In this document: positions 6,780-27,058 of the stretch, piece by piece
How the letters are laid out: each line of letters opens with the position of its first letter
Numbering within the stretch: position 1 is the stretch's first letter
NCBI GenBank assembly: GCA_018261905.1
Contig: JAGTRU010000034.1
Span: 1-64,000, forward strand
Source of the DNA: Pseudomonadota bacterium
GTDB lineage: Bacteria > Pseudomonadota > Gammaproteobacteria > Burkholderiales > Rhodocyclaceae
Reading direction: 5' to 3'
DNA: 64,000 nt
Notes under the pieces: generated by a model
The model's input: the letters and a program-made list of their open reading frames with translations, nothing else
Told to the model about the DNA's origin: nothing
Databases searched by the model: none
Translations under genes and position numbers: made by a program

Positions 6780-9659
6780 TCAGTTGGCGCTTGGGCAGGC
6801 GCAATTCAGGTTGCGGTCGCCAAACACATCATCGATGCGATTGACGCTCGGCCAGAACTTGTTGGCCGCCACCCAGGGCAGCGGGAAGACGGCCTGCTGG
6901 CGGCTGTACGGATGCTGCCAGTCGGCATCGATGATGTCGGCCTGGGTGTGCGGGGCATTCTTCAGCGGATTGTTGTCGGGCGCCCAGAGGCCGTTTTCGA
7001 CCTGGCGGATTTCCTCGCGGATGGCCACCATGGCTGCGATGAAACGATCCAGTTCGGCTTGCGATTCGGATTCGGTCGGCTCGACCATGATCGTGCCGGC
7101 CACCGGGAAGCTCACGGTCGGGGCGTGGAAGCCGTAATCCATCAGGCGCTTGGCGATGTCGCTTTCGCTGATGCCGGTCGCCGCCTTGAGCGGGCGGATG
7201 TCGAGAATGCACTCGTGCGCGACGCGGCCGTTCTTGCCGGTATACAGCACCGGATAGTGGGCGTTGAGCTGGCTGGCGACGTAGTTGGCGTTGAGAATGG
7301 CGACTTGCGTTGCCTTCTTGACGCCAGCGCCGCCGAGCATGGCCAGGTACATCCAGGAAATCGGCAGGATTGAGGCCGAGCCGAACGGTGCGGCAGAAAC
7401 TGCGCCCTGGCCGGCGTTGACACGCTCTGTGCCGCCCGTGGCGGCAACGGCGTGATCGGCCATGAACGGTGCCAGATGGGCTTTCAGACCGATCGGGCCC
7501 ATGCCCGGTCCGCCGCCGCCGTGCGGGATGGCGAAGGTCTTGTGCAGATTCATGTGGCTGACGTCGGCGCCGATGAAACCCGGTGCGGTCAGGCCGACCT
7601 GGGCGTTGAGGTTGGCGCCGTCCATGTACACCTGGCCGCCGTTGGCATGCACGATGGCGCAGATGTCGCGGATGGCTTCCTCGAACACGCCGTGCGTGGA
7701 CGGGTAGGTGATCATCAGGCAGGCCAGATCGTCCTTGTGCTGCTCGGCCTTGGCTTTGAGGTCGGCGACATCGACATTGCCGTTTTCATCGCAATCGACG
7801 ACGACAACCTGCATGCCGGCCATCTGGGCGGTGGCCGGGTTGGTGCCGTGCGCCGATTTCGGGATCAGGCAGATCTTGCGGTGGCTGTCGCCGCGGCTCG
7901 CGTGGTAGCGGGCAATCGCCACCAGGCCGGCGTATTCGCCCTGGGCGCCGGAGTTCGGTTGCATGCAGATGGCGTCGAAGCCGGTGACGATCTTCAGCCA
8001 TTCGGTCAGGCTGGCGATCATTTCGAGATAACCGCCGACCTGGTCGCGTGGTGCGAAGGGGTGCAGGTTGGCAAATTCCGGCCAGCTGACCGGGATCATT
8101 TCGCTGGTCGCGTTGAGCTTCATGGTGCAGGAGCCGAGCGAGATCATCGAGTGATCAAGCGCCAGATCCTTGTTCTGCAGCGACTTCAGGTAGCGCAGCA
8201 TCTCGTGTTCGGTGTGGTGGGTGTTGAACACCGGGTGACTGAGGATGGCATCGGTGCGCAGCAGTTCGACCGGCAGCGCCGGGTTGGCGGCGGCAACCTG
8301 GTGGTCGATGGCCGCCATGTCGAGCGTGATGTGGGTCATCAGCCGGAACAGCGCGGCGACATCCTGGCGGGTTGTCGTTTCGTCCAGGGAAATGCCAAGC
8401 ACCCCGGTGGACACGTGGCGCAGGTTGAAGCCGGCAGCCGCGGCATCGCGGAACACGGTTTCGGCACGGGCGCCGAGATCGATGTGCAGGGTATCGAAGA
8501 AGGTGTGGTTCAGTACCTTGATCTCGGCGCGCTTCAGGCCTTCGGCGAGGATTTCGGTCAGCCGGTGGATGCGGCTGGCAATGGTGCGCAGACCTTGCGG
8601 GCCGTGATAGACGGCATACATGCCGGCCATGTTGGCGAGCAGTACCTGCGAGGTGCAGATGTTGGAATTGGCCTTCTCGCGGCGGATGTGCTGCTCGCGG
8701 GTTTGCAGCGCCATGCGCAGCGCGGTGTTGCCGCGCGCATCCTTGGAAACGCCGATAATGCGGCCGGGCATCGACCGGACATGGGCGATGCGGGTGGCGA
8801 AGAAGGCGGCGTGCGGGCCGCCGAAGCCCATCGGGATGCCGAAGCGCTGGCTGGAACCGAGCGCGATGTCGGCGCCCATGGTGCCGGGCGACTTGAGCAG
8901 GACCAGGGCCATCAGGTCGCTGGCCACGGCGACGGTGGCGCCCTTGGCTTTCAGGCAGGCAATCGTTGCCGTCAGGTCGCGCACTTCGCCCTTGTCGTTC
9001 GGGTATTGCAGCAGGGCGCCGAAGAATTCGCCTTCGGGCAGTGTTTCGGCTGAGGCGATCACCAGCTCGAAGCCGAAATAGCCGGCGCGGGTTTTCACCA
9101 CGTCGATGGTCTGCGGGAAGCAGGCGGCATCGACCAGGAAACGGTTGGATTTCGACTTGGAAACGCGGCGCGCCATGGTCATGGCTTCGGCGGCGGCCGT
9201 GGCTTCGTCGAGCAGCGAGGCGTTGGCGATTTCCAGGCCGGTCAGGTCGATGATGACCTGCTGGAAGTTGAGCAGCGCTTCCAGGCGACCCTGGGCGATT
9301 TCGGCCTGGTAGGGCGTGTAGGCGGTGTACCAGCCCGGATTTTCCAGCACGTTGCGCAGGATGACCTTGGGCGTCAGCGTGTCGTAATAACCCATGCCGA
9401 TGCAGGACTTGTTGATCTTGTTCTTGCTGGCGATGGCCTTGAGGTCGGCCAGCGCTTCGTGCTCGCGGCGCGGGGCCGGCAAGGGCAGGTCGGCCGGCAG
9501 GCGGATGGCGGCGGGAATGGTCTGGTCGATTAGCTGTTCCAGGCTGGAGGCGCCGATGGCGGCCAGCATGGCAGTGGTTTCAGCGGCGCAGGGGCCGATG
9601 TGACGGGAAATGAACTCGTCACTCTGCTCCAGCGCGGAAAGGGGAAGATTCAGCGGCAT
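6780..9659 (-). CDS. gcvP: Glycine dehydrogenase (decarboxylating), P-protein
   Basis: The PLP-dependent P-protein of the glycine cleavage system decarboxylates glycine and loads aminomethyl onto lipoyl-GcvH. The protein is about 959 residues, the fused length of proteobacterial GcvP, with an N-terminal FISRHIGP and the PLP lysine in [16 protein letters not shown] near residue 709. An ATG 21 bases upstream at 9680 is also in frame; I chose 9659 because AGGAT sits 5-6 bases before it and family members start MPLNLPLS-like. It lies downstream of gcvH, but a repeat-containing gap separates the two. Confidence 0.96.
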
Positions 9660-9689
9660 GGGGATCCTAATGGGGCGCACTACAAATCG

Positions 9690-10924: not shown

Positions 10925-12016
10925 TTAGATAAGAGCCTTGCCGTTGCGGGCGAATACGGGTTTGACAACCTTGGCCTTGAGCTGCTTGCCGCGAATATCG
11001 ACTTCGACTTCGTCGCCGATGGCAACGCCGAGCGGCAGGCGGGCCAGGGCGATTGACTGCTGCAACGTTGGCGAGAAGCTGCCGGAGGTGATCTCACCCT
11101 CGCCTTGCGCCGTGATGACCTTCTGATGGCCACGCAGCACACCCTTGTCGAGCAGGATGAGGCCGAGGAACTGCTTCTGCTGACCGTTGGCGAGCAGGGC
11201 GGCCTTGCCAACGAAGTCGCGCTCATCCTTCGTGGCGACCGTCCAGGCCAGACCGGCATCGAGCGGCGAAACCGTCTCGTCCATGTCCTGGCCGTAAAGA
11301 TTCATGCCGGCTTCGAGGCGTAGCGTATCGCGGGCGCCGAGGCCGCAGGGCGCGACGCTGGCGGCGTGCAGCTTGTTCCACATGACTTCGGCTTCAGCGG
11401 CCGGCAGCATGATTTCAAAACCATCTTCGCCGGTATAGCCGGTGCTGGCGATGAAATACTGGTCCACTTCGGCGGCAAAGAAGGCTTTCAGGCCTTCGGT
11501 CGCGGCCTTGGCCTGCGGCAGCACTTCCCAGACCTTGGCGCGGGCATGCGGGCCCTGCACGGCGATGATGCCGAGGTTGTTGGCGCCATCGCGGCGCTGG
11601 GTGATCGTCACATCGAGTTGCCATTCGGCCGCTCTGGTCTGCATCCAGGCCAGATCCTTGAGGGCTGTGCCAGCATTGACGACGATGCGGAAGCGGGTTT
11701 CCGTCAGAAAATAGATGATCAGGTCGTCGATGACGCCGCCGGCCTCGTTGAGCATGGCCGAGTAGAGCGCCTTGCCGGAGGTCTGCAGCTTGGCAACATC
11801 GTTGGCGACGAGGCGCGACAGGAAGGCGCGGCAATCGGTGCCGACGACATCGACCGGGCACATGTGCGAAACGTCGAACATGCCGCAGTCGTTGCGTACC
11901 GCATGGTGTTCCTCGATCTGCGAGCCGTAGTTGACCGGCATGTCCCAGCCGCCGAAATCAACCATCCGGGCCTGCATTGCGCGGTGGGCGTTGTTGAGCA
12001 CTGTTTTCTTCAGCAT
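10925..12016 (-). CDS. gcvT: Aminomethyltransferase, T-protein of glycine cleavage
   Basis: The folate-dependent T-protein releases ammonia and forms methylene-tetrahydrofolate from the aminomethyl carried by GcvH. It is 363 residues, a normal length. Recognisable motifs are [28 protein letters not shown]-like (seen as [11 protein letters not shown]) and [24 protein letters not shown] lies 7 bases before the ATG. Its 5' leader contains a tandem glycine riboswitch and a terminator hairpin. It is the first gene of the gcv group. Confidence 0.97.
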
Positions 12017-12060: not shown

Positions 12061-12102
12061 AAAAGGGGTGAAACGAAAGAACGAATCTTGCGTTTCACCC
12101 CT
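12061..12102 (-). terminator. Riboswitch expression-platform terminator in the gcvT leader
   Basis: On the minus strand AGGGGTGAAACG pairs with CGTTTCACCCCT and is followed by UUUU, a classic intrinsic terminator. It lies between the second glycine aptamer and gcvT. By analogy with known glycine riboswitches, glycine binding would prevent this hairpin and allow gcvT expression; the switching direction is inference. Confidence 0.85.
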
Positions 12103-12105
12103 CTG

Positions 12106-12262
12106 TCCTCGATACCTGAGAGATTTGCCCCATCGGTGGGCGCTGTTGACGCCGCTCTCCAGAGTTTCATGAGTCAAGCCCATGATTCCACGGTCCTTTT
12201 GCCTGAGCGTTTTCGGGTGAAATTGCGCCTTCGGCGGCAGAGTTGATCTGCGCTCTCCCATG
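12106..12262 (-). ncRNA. Tandem glycine riboswitch
   Basis: The leader reads GGGAGAGC...GCCGCCGAAGGCGCAA...CTCAGGCAAAAGGACC for the first aptamer, then CTCTGGAGAGCGG...GCCCACCGATGGGCAA...CTCTCAGGT...GAGGACAGAG for the second. These are the two conserved aptamer cores of the glycine riboswitch. Both are complete, and they sit between a sigma-70 promoter and a terminator ahead of gcvT. Confidence 0.95.
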
Positions 12263-12272
12263 GAATGCGGGC

Positions 12273-12301: not shown

Positions 12302-12460
12302 CTTGCTTGGGTGCTTGCCGTGGGAAAGGTGGGGTTCTCGGCTATCAGGAAAACCTGTTTGGCGTTACCCGGTGCGCAACATTTCATCAAAATTAATGCC
12401 CAAATCACGCAGTGCTATCCCCAAAACATGCTGCGCCGCACCAAGAGGGGCTTCTCCTTC

Positions 12461-18651: not shown

Positions 18652-18661
18652 ATTTGTGGCC

Positions 18662-19102
18662 ATGGATTTAAATACGCTGCTTGAAACGACCGTTGTTGGT
18701 CTGGGTTATGAACTCGTTGATGTCGAGATGTCGCCACGCGCCCGTACCATTCGCGTCTTCATCGATGTGCAGGGTCGCGAGAGCGGCATTGATGTCGAAG
18801 ATTGCGCCAAAGTCTCCAATCAACTGTCGCGCGTTTTCGAAGTCGAGAATGTCGATTATGACCGTCTCGAAATTTCTTCGCCGGGTCTGGATCGCGTGGT
18901 CAAGAAGGCCGCCGATTTCGAACGCTTTGCCGGTCAGGATATTCAAATCAAGGTACGTATTCCGCAGGGGGGTCGCCGTAATTTCCAGGGCGAGCTGCTC
19001 GGTTGCAAAGATGGCAAGGTTGGTCTTCGCCTGGAAAAAGATGATGTGGAACTGGAATTCACCAATATCGAGAAGGCACGTCTGGTGCCTCGTTTCGACT
19101 GA
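18662..19102 (+). CDS. rimP: Ribosome maturation factor RimP
   Basis: Needed for 30S subunit maturation. It has 146 residues, starting MDLNTLLETTVVGLGYELVDVE, with the family motifs RVFID and YDRLEISSPGLDRVV. A GTG 6 bases upstream is in frame, but the ATG is the likelier start. No strong Shine-Dalgarno sequence is visible within the normal distance; an AAGG lies upstream of the leader hairpin. It is the first gene of the nusA-infB operon. Confidence 0.95.
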   Translation: MDLNTLLETTVVGLGYELVDVEMSPRARTIRVFIDVQGRESGIDVEDCAKVSNQLSRVFEVENVDYDRLEISSPGLDRVVKKAADFERFAGQDIQIKVRIPQGGRRNFQGELLGCKDGKVGLRLEKDDVELEFTNIEKARLVPRFD

Positions 19103-19125
19103 AGGACTAGGAGGTTTTAGCCCAT

Positions 19126-20466
19126 GTGCGTGTCTCGATCGACCGTAATACCGGTAACTACGACTCCTTCCGTCGCTGGCAGGTCGTTCCTGACAACGAA
19201 TACGTCAATGAATACCTGGAAAAGCCGTTGTCCGATGCGCAAAAGGATGATCCGGAAATCGAAGTCGGCGATACGCTCGAAGAAGGGCTGGAGCCGATCG
19301 ATTTTGGTCGCATCGGTGCCCAGGCGGCCAAGCAGGTCATTCTGCAGAAGATCCGCGATGCCGAGCGCGAACAGATCCTGACCGACTTCCTGGATCGCAA
19401 GGAACATGTTGTTTCCGGCACCATCAAGCGCATGGAGCGTGGCAACGCCATCATCGAAGCGGGCAAGATCGAAGCCATGCTGCCGCGCGACCAAATGATT
19501 CCCAAGGAAAACCTACGCATCGGCGACCGTGTCCGTGCCTACCTGTTGCGCATTGATCGCAATGCGCGTGGTCCGCAGATCATCCTGTCGCGTACCGCGC
19601 CGGAATTCGTCATCAAGCTGTTCGAAATGGAAGTGCCGGAAATCTCCGACGGTCTCATGGAACTCAAGGCCTGTGCCCGCGACCCCGGTCTGCGCGCCAA
19701 GATTGCCGTCAAGTCCAACGATCCGCGCGTGGACCCGATCGGTACCTGCGTTGGTTTGCGCGGTTCCCGCGTTACCGCCGTGCGTAACGAAATCGGCGGC
19801 GAGAATATCGATATCGTGCTGTGGTCGGCCGATCCGGCCCAGTTCGTGATCGGCGCCCTGTCGCCGGCCGAGGTTTCCTCCATCGTGGTCGATGAAGAGA
19901 AGCATGTTATGGATGTCGTCGTCGACGAAGACAACCTGGCCATCGCCATCGGCCGTAGCGGCCAGAATGTGCGTCTGGCCTCCGAGCTGACCGGCTGGAC
20001 CATCAACCTGATGACCCAGGACGAGTCGGCCAAGCGTTCGGAAGCCGAATACGCGGTGACCCGCGTCGTCTTCATGGAAAAGCTGGATATCGACGAAGAG
20101 CTGGCCGATCTGCTGATCGAGGAAGGCTTCTCGACGCTGGAAGAAGTGGCCTATGTGCCGCTGGCCGAAATGTTGGAAATCAATGGTCTCGACGAAGATA
20201 TCGTCAACGAGCTGCGTAACCGGGCCCGTAACGTGTTGCTGACCGAAGCCATTGCCACCGAAGAACAGCTGGAAAACGTGGCCGATGATTTGATCGGTCT
20301 GGAAGGCATGAGCAAGGAGCTGGCAGCAAAACTGGCCGGTCACAACGTCAAGACGCGCGATGATCTCGCCGAACTGGCGGTTGATGAACTGACTGAAATG
20401 ACCGGCATCGACGACGAGCGTGCCAAGGAACTTATTCTGAAGGCACGTGCTCACTGGTTTGAGTGA
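19126..20466 (+). pseudogene. nusA: nusA, with the N-terminal coding region missing
   Basis: Transcription elongation/termination factor NusA. The S1 domain ([30 protein letters not shown]), both KH domains ([33 protein letters not shown]) and the C-terminal helix-hairpin-helix repeats are intact. The open frame begins with GTG-CGT-GTC ([10 protein letters not shown]), a sequence normally found near residue 45 of NusA. The usual start SRE-hLLLVDALAREK and the rest of the RNA-polymerase-binding N-terminal domain are absent. The ribosome binding site AGGAGG and an ATG at 19124 remain, but that ATG is in another frame. About 130 bases appear deleted between two ATG triplets. It is either a truncated gene or a sequence/assembly error. 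Confidence 0.85.
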
Positions 20467-20482
20467 GCGGGAGGTAGCAAAT

Positions 20483-23221
20483 ATGTCCGCAACAACTGTT
20501 TCACAATTTGCCGTTGAACTGAAAATGCCGGTCGCGGCCCTGCTTGAGCAATTGAGCAAGGCCGGGGTGGCGACGCAAGACAGCAGTGGTGCCCTGACCG
20601 ATCAGGACAAGGCCCGTTTGCTCGATTACCTGCGCCGTGCGCATGGTGACGAGTCGAAGACCAAGATCACCCTGACCCGCAAGCAGACCTCGGAAATCAA
20701 GGCAACTGACGCCAATGGCCGAGCCCGTACCGTGCAGGTCGAGGTGCGCAAGAAGCGCGTCCTGGTCAAGCGCGAGCTGGGCGACCAGGTGCCGGATGCG
20801 GCGCTCGAAGAATTGGAATTGCCGGTCGAAGCCCCGGTTGCCGAAATCATTCCGATAGCGGAGCCGATTCCCGAGCCGGTCGTTGAGATCGCCCCAGAGC
20901 CGGAACCGGAACCGGAGCCTGCGCCGGAACCCGAGCCGGTGGTTGAAGTGCCGGTCGTCGAAGTGGCGCCGGAGCCCGAAGTCGCTGCCGCGCCGGCCAC
21001 GGTTGCCGTTGCTCCGACGCGTGCCTCGATTATTGGTGAGCAGGAACTGCGGGCCCGCGAAGAGCAGATGCGCCGCCATAACCAGTTGCGTGAAATCCAG
21101 GAGCGCGAGCTCAAACAAAAGCAGGCTCGCGAAGCCGAATTGAGCCGCTTGCGCCAACAGGCCGAATTGGCCGCTGTCGCGGCCAAGGAAGCCGAGCAGG
21201 CCAAGCAGCAGGCGGCCGCTCAGGCCAAGACGCAGGAAGCGCCGGCTGCCGACAAGGGAACCTTGCACAAGAAGCCGGATGCGCCGGGCAAGGATGCCAA
21301 GAAGGGCGGCAATAGCCGTGCCGATGATGGCAAGAAGAAGCCGGGCATCAAGACGCGTTCCTCCGATACCGGTAGTTCGTGGAAGAGCGGGCGCCAGGGT
21401 CACAAGAAGCACGGCCATGCGGTCGATGACGGGCAGGGCAGCTTCCAGGCGCCGACCGAGCAGGTCGTTCGCGAAGTGCATATTCCGGAAACCATTTCGG
21501 TGTCCGATCTGGCCCACAAGATGGCGGTGAAGGCCATTGAAGTCATCAAGGTGATGATGAAGATGGGTTCGATGGTCACCATCAACCAGGTGTTGGACCA
21601 GGAAACGGCGATGATCGTCGTCGAAGAAATGGGCCACAAGGCACTGGCTGCCAAGCTTGACGATCCGGATGCCTTCCTCGAAGAGTCGGCCGAGCACAAG
21701 GATGTGCCGCTCGAGCCGCGCGCGCCGGTGGTTACCGTCATGGGCCACGTCGACCATGGCAAGACCTCGCTGCTCGACCATATTCGTCGTGCCAAGGTGG
21801 CGGCGGGCGAAGCCGGCGGCATTACCCAGCACATCGGTGCCTACCACGTCGAAACCGACCGAGGCATGGTGACCTTCCTCGATACCCCGGGTCACGAAGC
21901 ATTTACCGCGATGCGGGCCCGTGGTGCCAAGGCAACCGACATCGTCATCCTGGTGGTGGCGGCCGACGACGGTGTCATGCCGCAAACCAAGGAAGCCATC
22001 CACCATGCCAAGGCGGCCGGTGTGCCGCTGGTCGTGGCGATCAACAAGATGGACAAGCCGGATGCCAATCCGGACCGTGTCAAACAGGAACTGGTTGCCG
22101 AAGGCGTCATTCCCGAAGAGTACGGTGGCGATTCGCCCTTCGTGTCGGTTTCCGCCAAGAAGGGTACTGGCATCGACGAACTGCTCGAACAGGTGCTGCT
22201 GCAGGCAGAAATTCTCGAATTGAAGGCGCAGAAGGATGCGCCGGCCAAGGGCCTGATCATCGAAGCTCGCCTCGACAAGGGCCGTGGCGCCGTGGCGACC
22301 ATGCTGGTGCTGTCCGGTACCTTGAAGCGCGGCGATGTCGTGCTGGCCGGTCAGGTTTCTGGCCGGGTGCGTGCCATGCTCGACGAAAATGGCAAGCCGA
22401 TCAACGAAGCCGGTCCGTCGATTCCGGTCGAAATTCTCGGTCTGTCGGATGTACCGGCTGCCGGTGAGGAAGCCATTGTCCTGACCGACGAAAAGAAGGC
22501 CCGCGAAATCGCGCTGTTCCGTCAGGGCAAATTCCGCGACGTCAAGCTGGCCCGCCAGCAGGCTGCCAAGCTCGAAAATATGTTCGAACAGATGAAGGAA
22601 GGCGAAATCAAGACGCTGGCCTTGATCGTCAAGGCCGACGTCCAGGGTTCCCAGGAAGCTCTGGTGCAGACCCTGGCCAAGCTGGCCAACGAAGAGGTTC
22701 GGGTCAGTGTCATTCACGGTGCGGTCGGTGCGATCAGCGAATCCGACGTCAATCTGGCGCAGGCTTCGGGTGCCGTCATCATCGGCTTCAATACCCGGGC
22801 CGATGTCGGGGCACGCAAGCTGGCCGAGACCTTCGGCGTCGATATCCGTTACTACAACGTGATTTACGACGCGGTCGACGAGGTCAAGGCTGCGCTGTCC
22901 GGGATGCTGTCGCCTGAGAAGCGCGAGCAGATTACCGGTATGGTCGAAATTCGTCAGGTCATCACCGTTTCGAAGGTGGGTAATATTGCCGGCTGTTATG
23001 TGCAGGAAGGCGTCATCAAGCGCAATTCCCGCATCCGTCTGCTGCGCAACAACGTCGTACAGTGGGACGGCGAGCTGGAATCGCTCAAGCGCTTCAAGGA
23101 TGACGTCAAGGAAGTTCGCAGCAATTTCGAATGTGGTCTGTCGCTCAGGAATAACAACGATATTCAAGAAGGCGATCACCTCGAAGTCTACGAAATCCAG
23201 GAAGTGGCGCGTACTCTGTAA
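20483..23221 (+). CDS. infB: Translation initiation factor IF-2
   Basis: The GTPase that brings initiator tRNA to the ribosome. The 912-residue protein has an N-terminal IF2_N domain ([24 protein letters not shown]), a long low-complexity linker with repeated PEPE and Lys/Gln-rich stretches, and a GTPase domain with GHVDHGKTS near residue 420, DTPGHEAF and NKMDKPDA. Barrel domains and the C-terminal fMet-tRNA-binding domain follow. The ATG at 20483 has GGGAGG upstream. An in-frame upstream ATG at 20447 lies in the nusA end and is not the start. Confidence 0.97.
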
Positions 23222-23589
23222 TGAAGAAAGGTTTTCAGCGCAGTGACCGGGTCGCGGAGCAGGTTCGCCGCGATCTGGCCGACCTCATTCGCGTCGAGTT
23301 GAAAGACCCGCGTGTTGGCATGATCAGTCTGACGGCCGTCGAGTTGACGCCGGATTATGCTCACGCCAAGGTCTTTTTCACGACTCTTGATAGCGAACAT
23401 CTGGCCGAGATTCAGGTCGGCCTCAAGCGTGCTTCGGGTTTCCTGCGCCGCGAATTGGGGCGGCGGATTCACATCCATACGCTGCCGGAGTTGCATTTCG
23501 TCTACGACAACTCGCTGGAGCGTGGCGCCAGCATGTCGCAACTGATTGACCAGGCTTCGGCGCTCAGCGACCTGACGCCGGAAGACTGA
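23221..23589 (+). CDS. rbfA: Ribosome-binding factor A
   Basis: A KH-fold cold-shock factor that matures 16S rRNA in the 30S subunit. It has 122 residues with [33 protein letters not shown] and the late motif [15 protein letters not shown]. Its ATG shares one base with the infB stop (TAATG), so translation is coupled. Confidence 0.96.
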
Positions 23590-23594
23590 TCCCC

Positions 23595-24497
23595 ATGCAG
23601 CGTGTCAAAAAGACCTGGCAACGGGTCGATGGCGTCCTGTTGCTGGACAAACCTATAGGCCTGACTTCGAACGACGCGCTACAAAAGGCGCGTCGTCTGT
23701 TTTCTGCCGCCAAGGGCGGCCATACCGGAACGCTCGATCCGCGGGCGACCGGCCTGCTGCCGCTCTGTTTCGGCGAAGCCACCAAGTTCTCGGCTGATCT
23801 GCTCGATGCCGACAAGACCTACGAAGCCGTGCTCAAGTTGGGCATTACCACCGACTCCGGCGATGTCGACGGCAAGATCATTGCGACGGCGCCGGTGGTC
23901 GTCTCGGAAAGCGATGTGGCGCGTGTCCTGCCGCAATTCACCGGCGACCTGCAGCAGATCCCGCCCATGCATTCGGCGCTCAAGCGCGATGGTCGGCCGC
24001 TCTACGAACTGGCGCGCCAAGGCATCGAAGTCGAACGCGAACCGCGTGCCATCACCATCTATTCCCTCGAGTGCCTGGCTTTTGCCGGCGACTCGCTGAC
24101 CCTGCGCGTCGCCTGCAGCAAGGGGACCTATATCCGCGTGCTGGCCGCTGATATCGGCAACGCGCTGGGTTGCGGTGCCCACCTGGCCGCCTTGCGGCGC
24201 ACCGTGGTCGGTGATCTCGATCTGGCCAATGCCGTCACGCTCGATGAGCTGATGGCACTCGATGAGGCGGGCCGGGCAGGGCACCTGCAACCGGTCGATG
24301 CGCTGGTCCATACCCTGCCGATCGTCACGGTCGAAGGTGAGGCGGAGCAGCGTTTCCGGCACGGCAATCCGGTTGATCTGCCGGAAGGCCTGAGCGGAAA
24401 AATTCGCGTTTATGCAGGCGGGCAATTGATTGGCGTCGGCGAGCCGGGGCCGGATGGTCGCCTTTGGCCAAAACGCCTGGTGCAATTGGCGCCGTAA
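23595..24497 (+). CDS. truB: tRNA pseudouridine-55 synthase
   Basis: Makes pseudouridine 55 in the T-loop of tRNAs. It has 300 residues with GVLLLDKPIGLTSNDALQ and the catalytic aspartate at residue 48 in GGHTGTLDPRATGLLP. The central RNA-binding motif and the C-terminal PUA-like region (GNPVDLP...VYAGGQLIGVGE) are complete. The gene lies 5 bases after rbfA. Confidence 0.96.
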   Translation: MQRVKKTWQRVDGVLLLDKPIGLTSNDALQKARRLFSAAKGGHTGTLDPRATGLLPLCFGEATKFSADLLDADKTYEAVLKLGITTDSGDVDGKIIATAPVVVSESDVARVLPQFTGDLQQIPPMHSALKRDGRPLYELARQGIEVEREPRAITIYSLECLAFAGDSLTLRVACSKGTYIRVLAADIGNALGCGAHLAALRRTVVGDLDLANAVTLDELMALDEAGRAGHLQPVDALVHTLPIVTVEGEAEQRFRHGNPVDLPEGLSGKIRVYAGGQLIGVGEPGPDGRLWPKRLVQLAP

Positions 24498-24500
24498 GCT

Positions 24501-24508
24501 GATATACT
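24501..24508 (+). promoter_or_regulatory. Extended -10 promoter candidate upstream of rpsO
   Basis: TGATATACT is an extended -10 box (TG-N-TATACT) with no good -35, immediately after truB. It would start a leader of about 85 bases before rpsO, matching the separate rpsO promoter known in enterics. Confidence 0.5.
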
Positions 24509-24602
24509 CGCGCGCTTTCCGTCGCCAACGGAAAAATTTTAAATAACTGGCGCTGGCTCTATCAAACCGGGGCGGCGTCGTAACCATGAAAGAGAGTTTG
24601 AA

Positions 24603-24872
24603 ATGGCATTCACTACCGAAATCAAAGCCGGCGTCGTCGCCGATTTCCAGCGCGCCCAAGGCGACACCGGATCTCCTGAAGTTCAAGTCGCGCTGCTGAC
24701 CGCCCGCATCAACGACCTGACCCCGCACTTCAAGGAACACAAGAAGGATCACCACTCGCGTCGTGGTCTGCTGCGCATGGTCAATCAGCGTCGCAAGCTG
24801 CTCGATTACCTCAAGGGCAAGAACATTGATGCCTACCGTACCCTGATTACCCGCCTTGGTCTGCGCAAGTAA
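24603..24872 (+). CDS. rpsO: 30S ribosomal protein S15
   Basis: An 89-residue primary 16S rRNA-binding protein of the small subunit, with the standard sequence [21 protein letters not shown] and [31 protein letters not shown] precedes the ATG. The leader is long enough to host S15 feedback control, but I cannot define the structure by eye. A terminator follows. Confidence 0.98.
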
Positions 24873-24893
24873 GCAGGATCAAAGCCAAGAAAG

Positions 24894-24924
24894 AGCGGCC
24901 CGGATATCTCCCGGCCGCTTTTTT
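24894..24924 (+). terminator. Intrinsic terminator after rpsO
   Basis: AGCGGCC at 24894-24900 pairs with GGCCGCT at 24913-24919 and leads into six T residues. In enterics a similar site partly separates rpsO from pnp. Confidence 0.88.
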
Positions 24925-25001
24925 GCTTTTTCCGAAGCCGTTTTTTCGTTGTTGTAAGTTGTTGTTATTGTTGTTAATTGTGATGAGAGTGAAAGGAATA
25001 T

Positions 25002-27058
25002 ATGTTTAATGTCGTGAAAAAAACCTTCGCCTACGGTGATCATCAGATCACTCTGGAAACCGGCGAAGTCGCCCGCCAGGCTGGCGGCGCCGTCCTCGTT
25101 TCGATGGAAGAAACCGTGGTTCTGGTCACCGTTGTGGCAGCCAAGAATGCCAAGCCGGGCCAGGATTTCTTCCCCTTGACCGTTGATTATCAGGAAAAGA
25201 CCTATGCCGCCGGCCGTATCCCCGGTGGTTTCTTCAAGCGCGAAGGCCGTCCTTCCGAAAAGGAAACGCTGACCTGCCGCCTGATCGATCGCCCGATCCG
25301 CCCGCTGTCGATTCCGACATCCCGGCCCTGCTCGGCGCCTCCGCTGCCCTGGCCATCTCCGGCGTGCCGTTCAACGGCCCGATCGGTGCTGCCCGCGTCG
25401 GCTACATCGACGGCCAGTACGTCCTGTGCCCGACCCTGAGCCAGCTCAAGGGTAGCCAGCTCGACCTCGTCGTCGCCGGTACCGAAGCCGCCGTGCTGAT
25501 GGTTGAATCCGAAGCCGACCAGCTGTCCGAAGAAGTCATGCTCGGCGCCGTCGTTTTCGGTCACACCGAAATGCAGAAGGCGATCAACGCCATCAACGAA
25601 CTGGTCGAAGAAGCCGGCAAGCCGGAATGGGACTGGCAAGCGCCGGCCCAGGACGAAGCCCTGGTCGCCAAGCTCAAGGATCTGGTTGGTGCCAAGCTCG
25701 AAGAAGCCTACAACATCACCGTCAAGCAAACGCGCAGCCAGGCCGTCAAGGTCATCCGTGCTGAAGCCATTGCCGCGCTGTGCGTAGGCGAGGGTGCCCC
25801 GGATGAAAACACCGTCGGCAACCTGTTCCACGAAATCGAAGCTTCCATCGTGCGCGGCCGCATCCTGTCGGGTGCTCCGCGTATCGACGGTCGCGACACG
25901 CGCACCGTGCGTCCGATCACCATGCGTTCCGGCGTTCTGCCGCGCACCCACGGTTCGGCTCTGTTCACGCGTGGCGAAACCCAGGCGCTGGCTGTCGCCA
26001 CGCTCGGCACCAACCGCGACGAACAGATCATCGACGCGCTGGCTGGCGAATACCGCGACCGCTTCATGCTGCACTACAACATGCCCCCGTACGCCACCGG
26101 CGAATGTGGTCGTGTTGGTACGCCGAAGCGTCGCGAAATCGGTCACGGCCGTCTGGCAAAGCGTGCGCTGCTCGCCGTGCTGCCGAAGCCGGAAGATTTC
26201 TCCTACTCGATGCGCCTGGTTTCGGAAATCACCGAATCCAACGGTTCGTCGTCGATGGCTTCCGTCTGTGGCGGCTGTCTGGCCCTGCTGGACGCCGGCG
26301 TGCCACTCAAGGCGCACGTTGCCGGTATCGCCATGGGTCTGATCAAGGACGGCAACCGTTTCGCCGTGCTGACCGATATCCTGGGTGATGAAGATCACCT
26401 CGGCGACATGGACTTCAAGGTGGCTGGCTCGACCGCTGGCATCACCGCGCTGCAGATGGACATCAAGATCCAGGGCATCACCAAGGAAATCATGCAGGTC
26501 GCCCTGGCGCAAGCCAAGGATGCCCGTATTCACATCCTCGGCCTGATGCAGGAAGCCGCTGCTGGTCCGCGTGAAGAAATGTCGGCCTACGCACCGCGTC
26601 TGTACACCTTCAAGATCAATCCGGAAAAGATCCGTGACGTGATCGGCAAGGGCGGCGCTGTCATTCGCGCCCTGACCGAAGAAACCGGCACCACGATCGA
26701 CATCCAGGACGACGGCACGATCACCATCGCTGCCACCAGCGGCGAAGCTGCCGCTGCGGCCCGTTCGCGCATCGATGCGATCACGGCGGAAGTCGAGATC
26801 GGCAAGATCTACGAAGGCACCGTGCTGAAGATTCTTGATTTCGGTGCGATCGTTTCCGTGCTGCCGGGCAAGGATGGTCTGCTGCATATCTCGCAGATCG
26901 CCCAGGAGCGCGTCAACAAGGTTGAAGACTACGTCAAGGAAGGCCAGATCGTTCGCGTCAAGGTTCTCGAAACCGACGACCGCGGTCGCGTCAAGCTGTC
27001 GATGAAGGCCGTTGCCGCCGAAGAGGGTGCTGCTGCGCCGGTCGAGCCACAACAGTAA
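25002..27058 (+). pseudogene. pnp: Polynucleotide phosphorylase with a frameshifting internal deletion
   Basis: The 3'-5' phosphorolytic exoribonuclease of the degradosome. The first frame (from the ATG at 25002, AAAGGAA upstream) encodes the normal start through [10 protein letters not shown] and then goes out of frame. The remaining protein continues from [18 protein letters not shown] in another frame, open from before 25310 to 27058, including the second RNase PH domain, KH domain ([19 protein letters not shown]) and S1 domain. The segment normally joining them (FPEGFYNE... about 22 residues) is missing. The gap is about 64 bases at 25308-25310, which also explains the frameshift. It is either a disrupted gene or a sequencing/assembly artefact. 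Confidence 0.88.

Follow-up and report, generated by a model that had tools for sequence, protein, structure and literature searches.

A draft betaproteobacterial genome with a truncated nusA start, most probably an assembly defect

NusA meets RNA polymerase through its N-terminal domain, which, according to the available text of PMC12288461, binds the flap-tip helix of the polymerase. In Escherichia coli NusA, the domain opens with helix alpha1 at residues 2-17 and helix alpha2 at residues 19-40, followed by strand beta1 from Val45, as given in the available part of PMC4642336.

The closest counterparts of the locus described here are the nusA genes of relatives in Dechloromonas and Azonexus. 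These likewise lie after rimP, use the same ribosome-binding site and, in the closest relative found (G039), encode a protein with 97% amino acid identity over the 446 remaining NusA residues; in contrast to the gene studied here, they have a start codon and 43 further codons. The window, a stretch of 64,000 nucleotides (contig JAGTRU010000034.1, positions 1 to 64,000), belongs to a draft genome of 4.92 Mb in 68 contigs (GCA_018261905.1), whose completeness is given as 99.99% and whose best-matching named records are Dechloromonas, Azonexus or their family.

The nusA junction

On the forward strand of the window, an intact rimP (18656-19102, ATG at 18662), a 148-residue open frame with RimP_N and RimP C-terminal domains, lies directly upstream of nusA. 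The nusA ribosome-binding site, AGGAGG at 19109-19114 (forward strand), has been kept; in G039 and most of the relatives printed, it precedes ATGAGC. As the original prediction had described, an ATG also persists here, at 19124-19126 (forward strand), but outside the NusA frame, opening an 85-residue non-NusA frame that ends at 19381. The distance from the A of the ATG to the Val codon at the head of the remaining NusA frame is 132 bases in G039 versus 2 in the window, so that 130 bases have been lost, in good agreement with the loss of about 130 bases first proposed, and because 130 leaves a remainder of one when divided by three, the ATG is out of the NusA frame. Alignment with G039 places the junction at 19123-19126 (forward strand), where the three bases of the ATG can be assigned to either side, as had also been foreseen, and the letters of the window are identical to the whole-genome record at this point.

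An open NusA frame runs from GTG 19126 (first ten residues not shown), a codon overlooked in the original prediction that overlaps the ATG at 19124; AGGAGG is separated from the GTG by 11 bases and from the ATG by 9. Judged from sequence, this GTG could act as a putative start, yielding a NusA of 446 residues (19126-20466, forward strand). What is missing relative to G039 is the start codon and codons 2-44. By comparison with G039, the lost segment corresponds at equal length to residues 1-44 of NusA chain 6flq_F and, within the RNA-polymerase-binding domain, makes up helices alpha1 and alpha2; given the limits of these elements in E. coli NusA, the loss stops exactly where beta1 starts. The match of the window to the Pfam NusA_N profile covers positions 43 to 119 of 119 only, compared with 1-119 in the relative P0002, and the product lacks a complete NusA_N with both helices. 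Its S1, KH_5 and HHH_5 domains all score above cut-off, and the gene keeps the position between rimP and infB expected of nusA. The next gene, infB (20483-23221, forward strand), is intact with its IF-2 domains, and the alignment with G039 is continuous over 19119-25308.

The remaining nusA is under strong purifying selection and has not decayed, since it differs from G039 by 117 synonymous and 13 non-synonymous codons, with dN of 0.016 and dS of 0.52. The N-terminal truncation of nusA in the draft is confirmed, beyond chance. Among 59 other congeneric genomes, 49 show a NusA match over residues 1 or 2 to 446 (5 have a partial match only and 5 none), and the open NusA frame measures 478-497 residues in all 49 versus 451 here. 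In a separate collection, from which the best 80 of 594 loci were considered, the N-terminal segment lies directly upstream in 79 of the 80, the exception (L066) being cut by a contig end. In one congener (G020, C1:1012215-1012285), the nusA match falls into two pieces near its end, at residues 423/424.

The original prediction had also called for a genome-wide search for a second nusA; protein and DNA searches of the window genome found none, leaving one nusA only. A stray N-terminal piece of nusA was not found in the window genome either, while the search recovered it in 10 of 10 relatives, including G039, the source of the query. The DNA matches to this piece in the window genome were short chance hits, the best with an E-value of 0.18.

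Further losses in the same draft

A second break, also overlooked in the original prediction, appeared when the 12-28 kb portion of the window was compared with G039 and a further congener, G016. About 6 kb from nusA, pnp lacks 64 bases at 25306-25309 (forward strand, G039 alignment), a loss that shifts its frame and leaves two open frames within 25002-27058, both on the forward strand: a first piece at 25002-25439, matching RNase_PH positions 4-97 of 130 and shifted past the junction, and a second piece in another frame at 25364-27058, carrying RNase_PH, PNPase, KH and S1 domains. Apart from G039, nine congeners were examined, and all 9 run through both the nusA and pnp sites without a break.

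A wider comparison covered 600,567 bases of the window genome against stretches of G039. Alignment pieces with a length of 200 bases or more and an identity of 76% or more were retained and add up to 143,290 bases, a total in which some repeat matches are counted more than once. Breaks of at least 15 bases between neighbouring alignment pieces were listed where the gap was at most 400 bases in the window genome and at most 600 in G039. This gave 15 breaks, 5 of which were counted as coding losses: within about 143 kb, nusA lacks 130 bases, pnp 64, a dctA-like gene 106, urtA 170 and the pheS-pheT pair 128. The dctA-like loss (C1:174313, locus L155), for which the comparison was with G039 only, affects a DctA/GltP-like transporter whose best family, DctA, is matched below cut-off. 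The urtA loss (C1:294175, L161) lies in a gene matching its family above cut-off, and urtA is whole in 6 of 9 other congeners, these being the 6 that have it. At C26:212572 (L195), where both families are matched above cut-off, PheS is without its end and PheT without its start, so that both genes form one open frame in the draft; the pair is whole in all 10 relatives checked, among them the query source G039, and a search of the window genome for further copies of either gene returned only those two pieces. Similar unmarked losses thus occur elsewhere in the draft and are absent from the relatives checked, which for the dctA-like gene means G039 alone. Extrapolated to the whole genome, our guess would be on the order of 170 coding losses.

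In the four losses confined to a single gene, the number of missing bases is never a multiple of three. The bases shared at the junctions, measured against G039 and not on the lost sequence itself, number 3 at nusA and 2-3, 1, 1 and 0 at the four remaining sites, and with 0-3 shared bases the junctions show no deletion sequence in common. Slippage at the shared ATG, as originally suggested, would fit the three bases shared at nusA but is a weak account in view of the other junctions.

The ten remaining breaks were not counted as coding losses. At C1:103029 (238 bases), the extra G039 sequence has inverted-repeat ends and looks like an insertion there; this stretch of about 240 bases (G039 C1:2556003-2556245, L179), absent from the window genome, resembles a small mobile element. 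At C13:12314, it is the window genome that has 117 extra bases relative to G039 and G016; they are apparently non-coding and lie at 12314-12456 of the window, upstream of a PHP-domain gene. Close by, at 12093-12270 on the reverse strand, the window carries a tandem glycine riboswitch (two Rfam RF00504 aptamers) facing the genes at 12016 and below, with gcvP at 6780-9680. By frame comparison, four breaks (C1:85613, 86835 and 301181, and C26:187407) appear to lie at the ends of genes or in intergenic stretches; near C1:85613, a G039 frame of 349 residues is matched by two frames in the window genome. C1:88847 and C26:148687 are diverged stretches, judged at junction level only, and C1:303146 and 303674 lie on either side of a repeated element.

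Within the alignment pieces, 15 gaps of at least 12 bases were present, 6 of them not multiples of three. As a control, G016 and G039 were compared over 20.7 kb, which re-covers the nusA region and is not an independent sample; a single break of 40 bases was seen, at the end of pnp and in the following spacer. One query (L141) went unmatched in all 6 genomes searched and was uninformative. No tandem duplication was found in 84 kb of C13.

Explanations for the losses

We hold with high confidence that the nusA truncation is a defect of draft assembly and not a feature of the cell, whose own nusA is very probably of the usual kind, with about 490 codons. On this view, pieces of some 60-170 bases are absent at scattered places in the draft, their flanks joined without a mark, with one such gap falling on the start of nusA and another in pnp 6 kb further on. 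We infer the technical cause: the likeliest route would be that small gaps between contigs were closed end to end, or that runs of N in scaffolds were removed. No N occurs in the 464 kb of the draft examined, so gaps, if any, are unmarked there.

A faulty draft is likelier than an odd cell because comparable short losses occur in further core genes of this draft. Phenylalanyl-tRNA synthetase is indispensable, and a cell in which nusA, pnp, urtA and the two subunits of the sole phenylalanyl-tRNA synthetase were freshly broken would hardly live. The original prediction had left the choice between a serious assembly error and a remarkable cell; the four further coding losses in about 143 kb support the former, and the latter is unlikely. 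Against a draft defect speak the three bases shared at nusA, slightly more than usual for an end-to-end join, and the stated completeness of the draft, together with contigs C31 and C42, which aligned over 5.8 and 7.5 kb with no break, so that the draft is not bad everywhere.

The deletion could instead be real, with the cell starting NusA at GTG 19126 and making a protein that lacks alpha1 and alpha2 and keeps the S1, KH and HHH domains. An in-frame start codon at a usable distance from AGGAGG, the intact and conserved remainder of the gene, and three shared junction bases compatible with slippage fit this account, which we nevertheless regard as improbable, given the same type of loss at four other sampled sites, pheS-pheT included. 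Moreover, the GTG would face competition for ribosomes from the out-of-frame ATG, which lies 9 bases past AGGAGG, and the lost part comprises two helices around the core of the domain, holding Leu27, Leu31 and Ile43, which are listed as RNA-polymerase-affected in the available part of PMC4642336. NusA is also reported to be essential in E. coli and B. subtilis (PMC12288461, available text). That a free-living betaproteobacterium lives on a NusA without alpha1 and alpha2, begun at GTG 19126, on a broken pnp and on a single PheS-PheT fusion chain appears to us similarly doubtful.

Deletions present in some DNA molecules only, whether as a minor population variant or as a chimera of low-DNA amplification taken up by the assembler, would also be expected to produce scattered losses and agree with the two or three bases shared at two junctions, but the minor form would have to win at several places, and we consider this very unlikely. 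A genome truly decaying by many small deletions, for example in a strain heading to host dependence, would account for several genes broken by short deletions, yet it is hardly credible in a genome as large as 4.92 Mb, in which nusA shows no other decay, pheS-pheT is among the broken genes, and the six gaps that are not multiples of three (12-35 bases, at gene ends or between genes) include none clearly inside a gene.

Comparison with known systems

If the draft is at fault, as we favour, then a rating of 99.99% completeness does not keep a draft from breaking core genes, and surveys taking it at face value would score nusA, pnp, pheS and pheT as lost, fused or pseudogenes. Where reads are not available, a search for comparable losses across one draft helps to tell faults of this kind from genuine gene loss. 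Draft errors that fragment genes are described in the available part of PMC12007338, where, as we propose here, comparison with relatives revealed genes that are interrupted by the assembly but whole in the cell. The errors treated there are those of long reads, whereas the present draft loses 64-170 bases at a time.

Were the truncation true, it would be a test of how much NusA depends on the N-terminal helices for RNA polymerase binding. Reduced N-terminal domains, as seen here, are described for the NusA proteins of Mycobacterium tuberculosis and Planctomyces limnophilus in the available text of PMC4642336. Those proteins, however, are without the globular head, whereas the NusA of the window is without alpha1 and alpha2, and the P. 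limnophilus chain 4mtn_A, so given in the same source, still matches the segment lost in the window.
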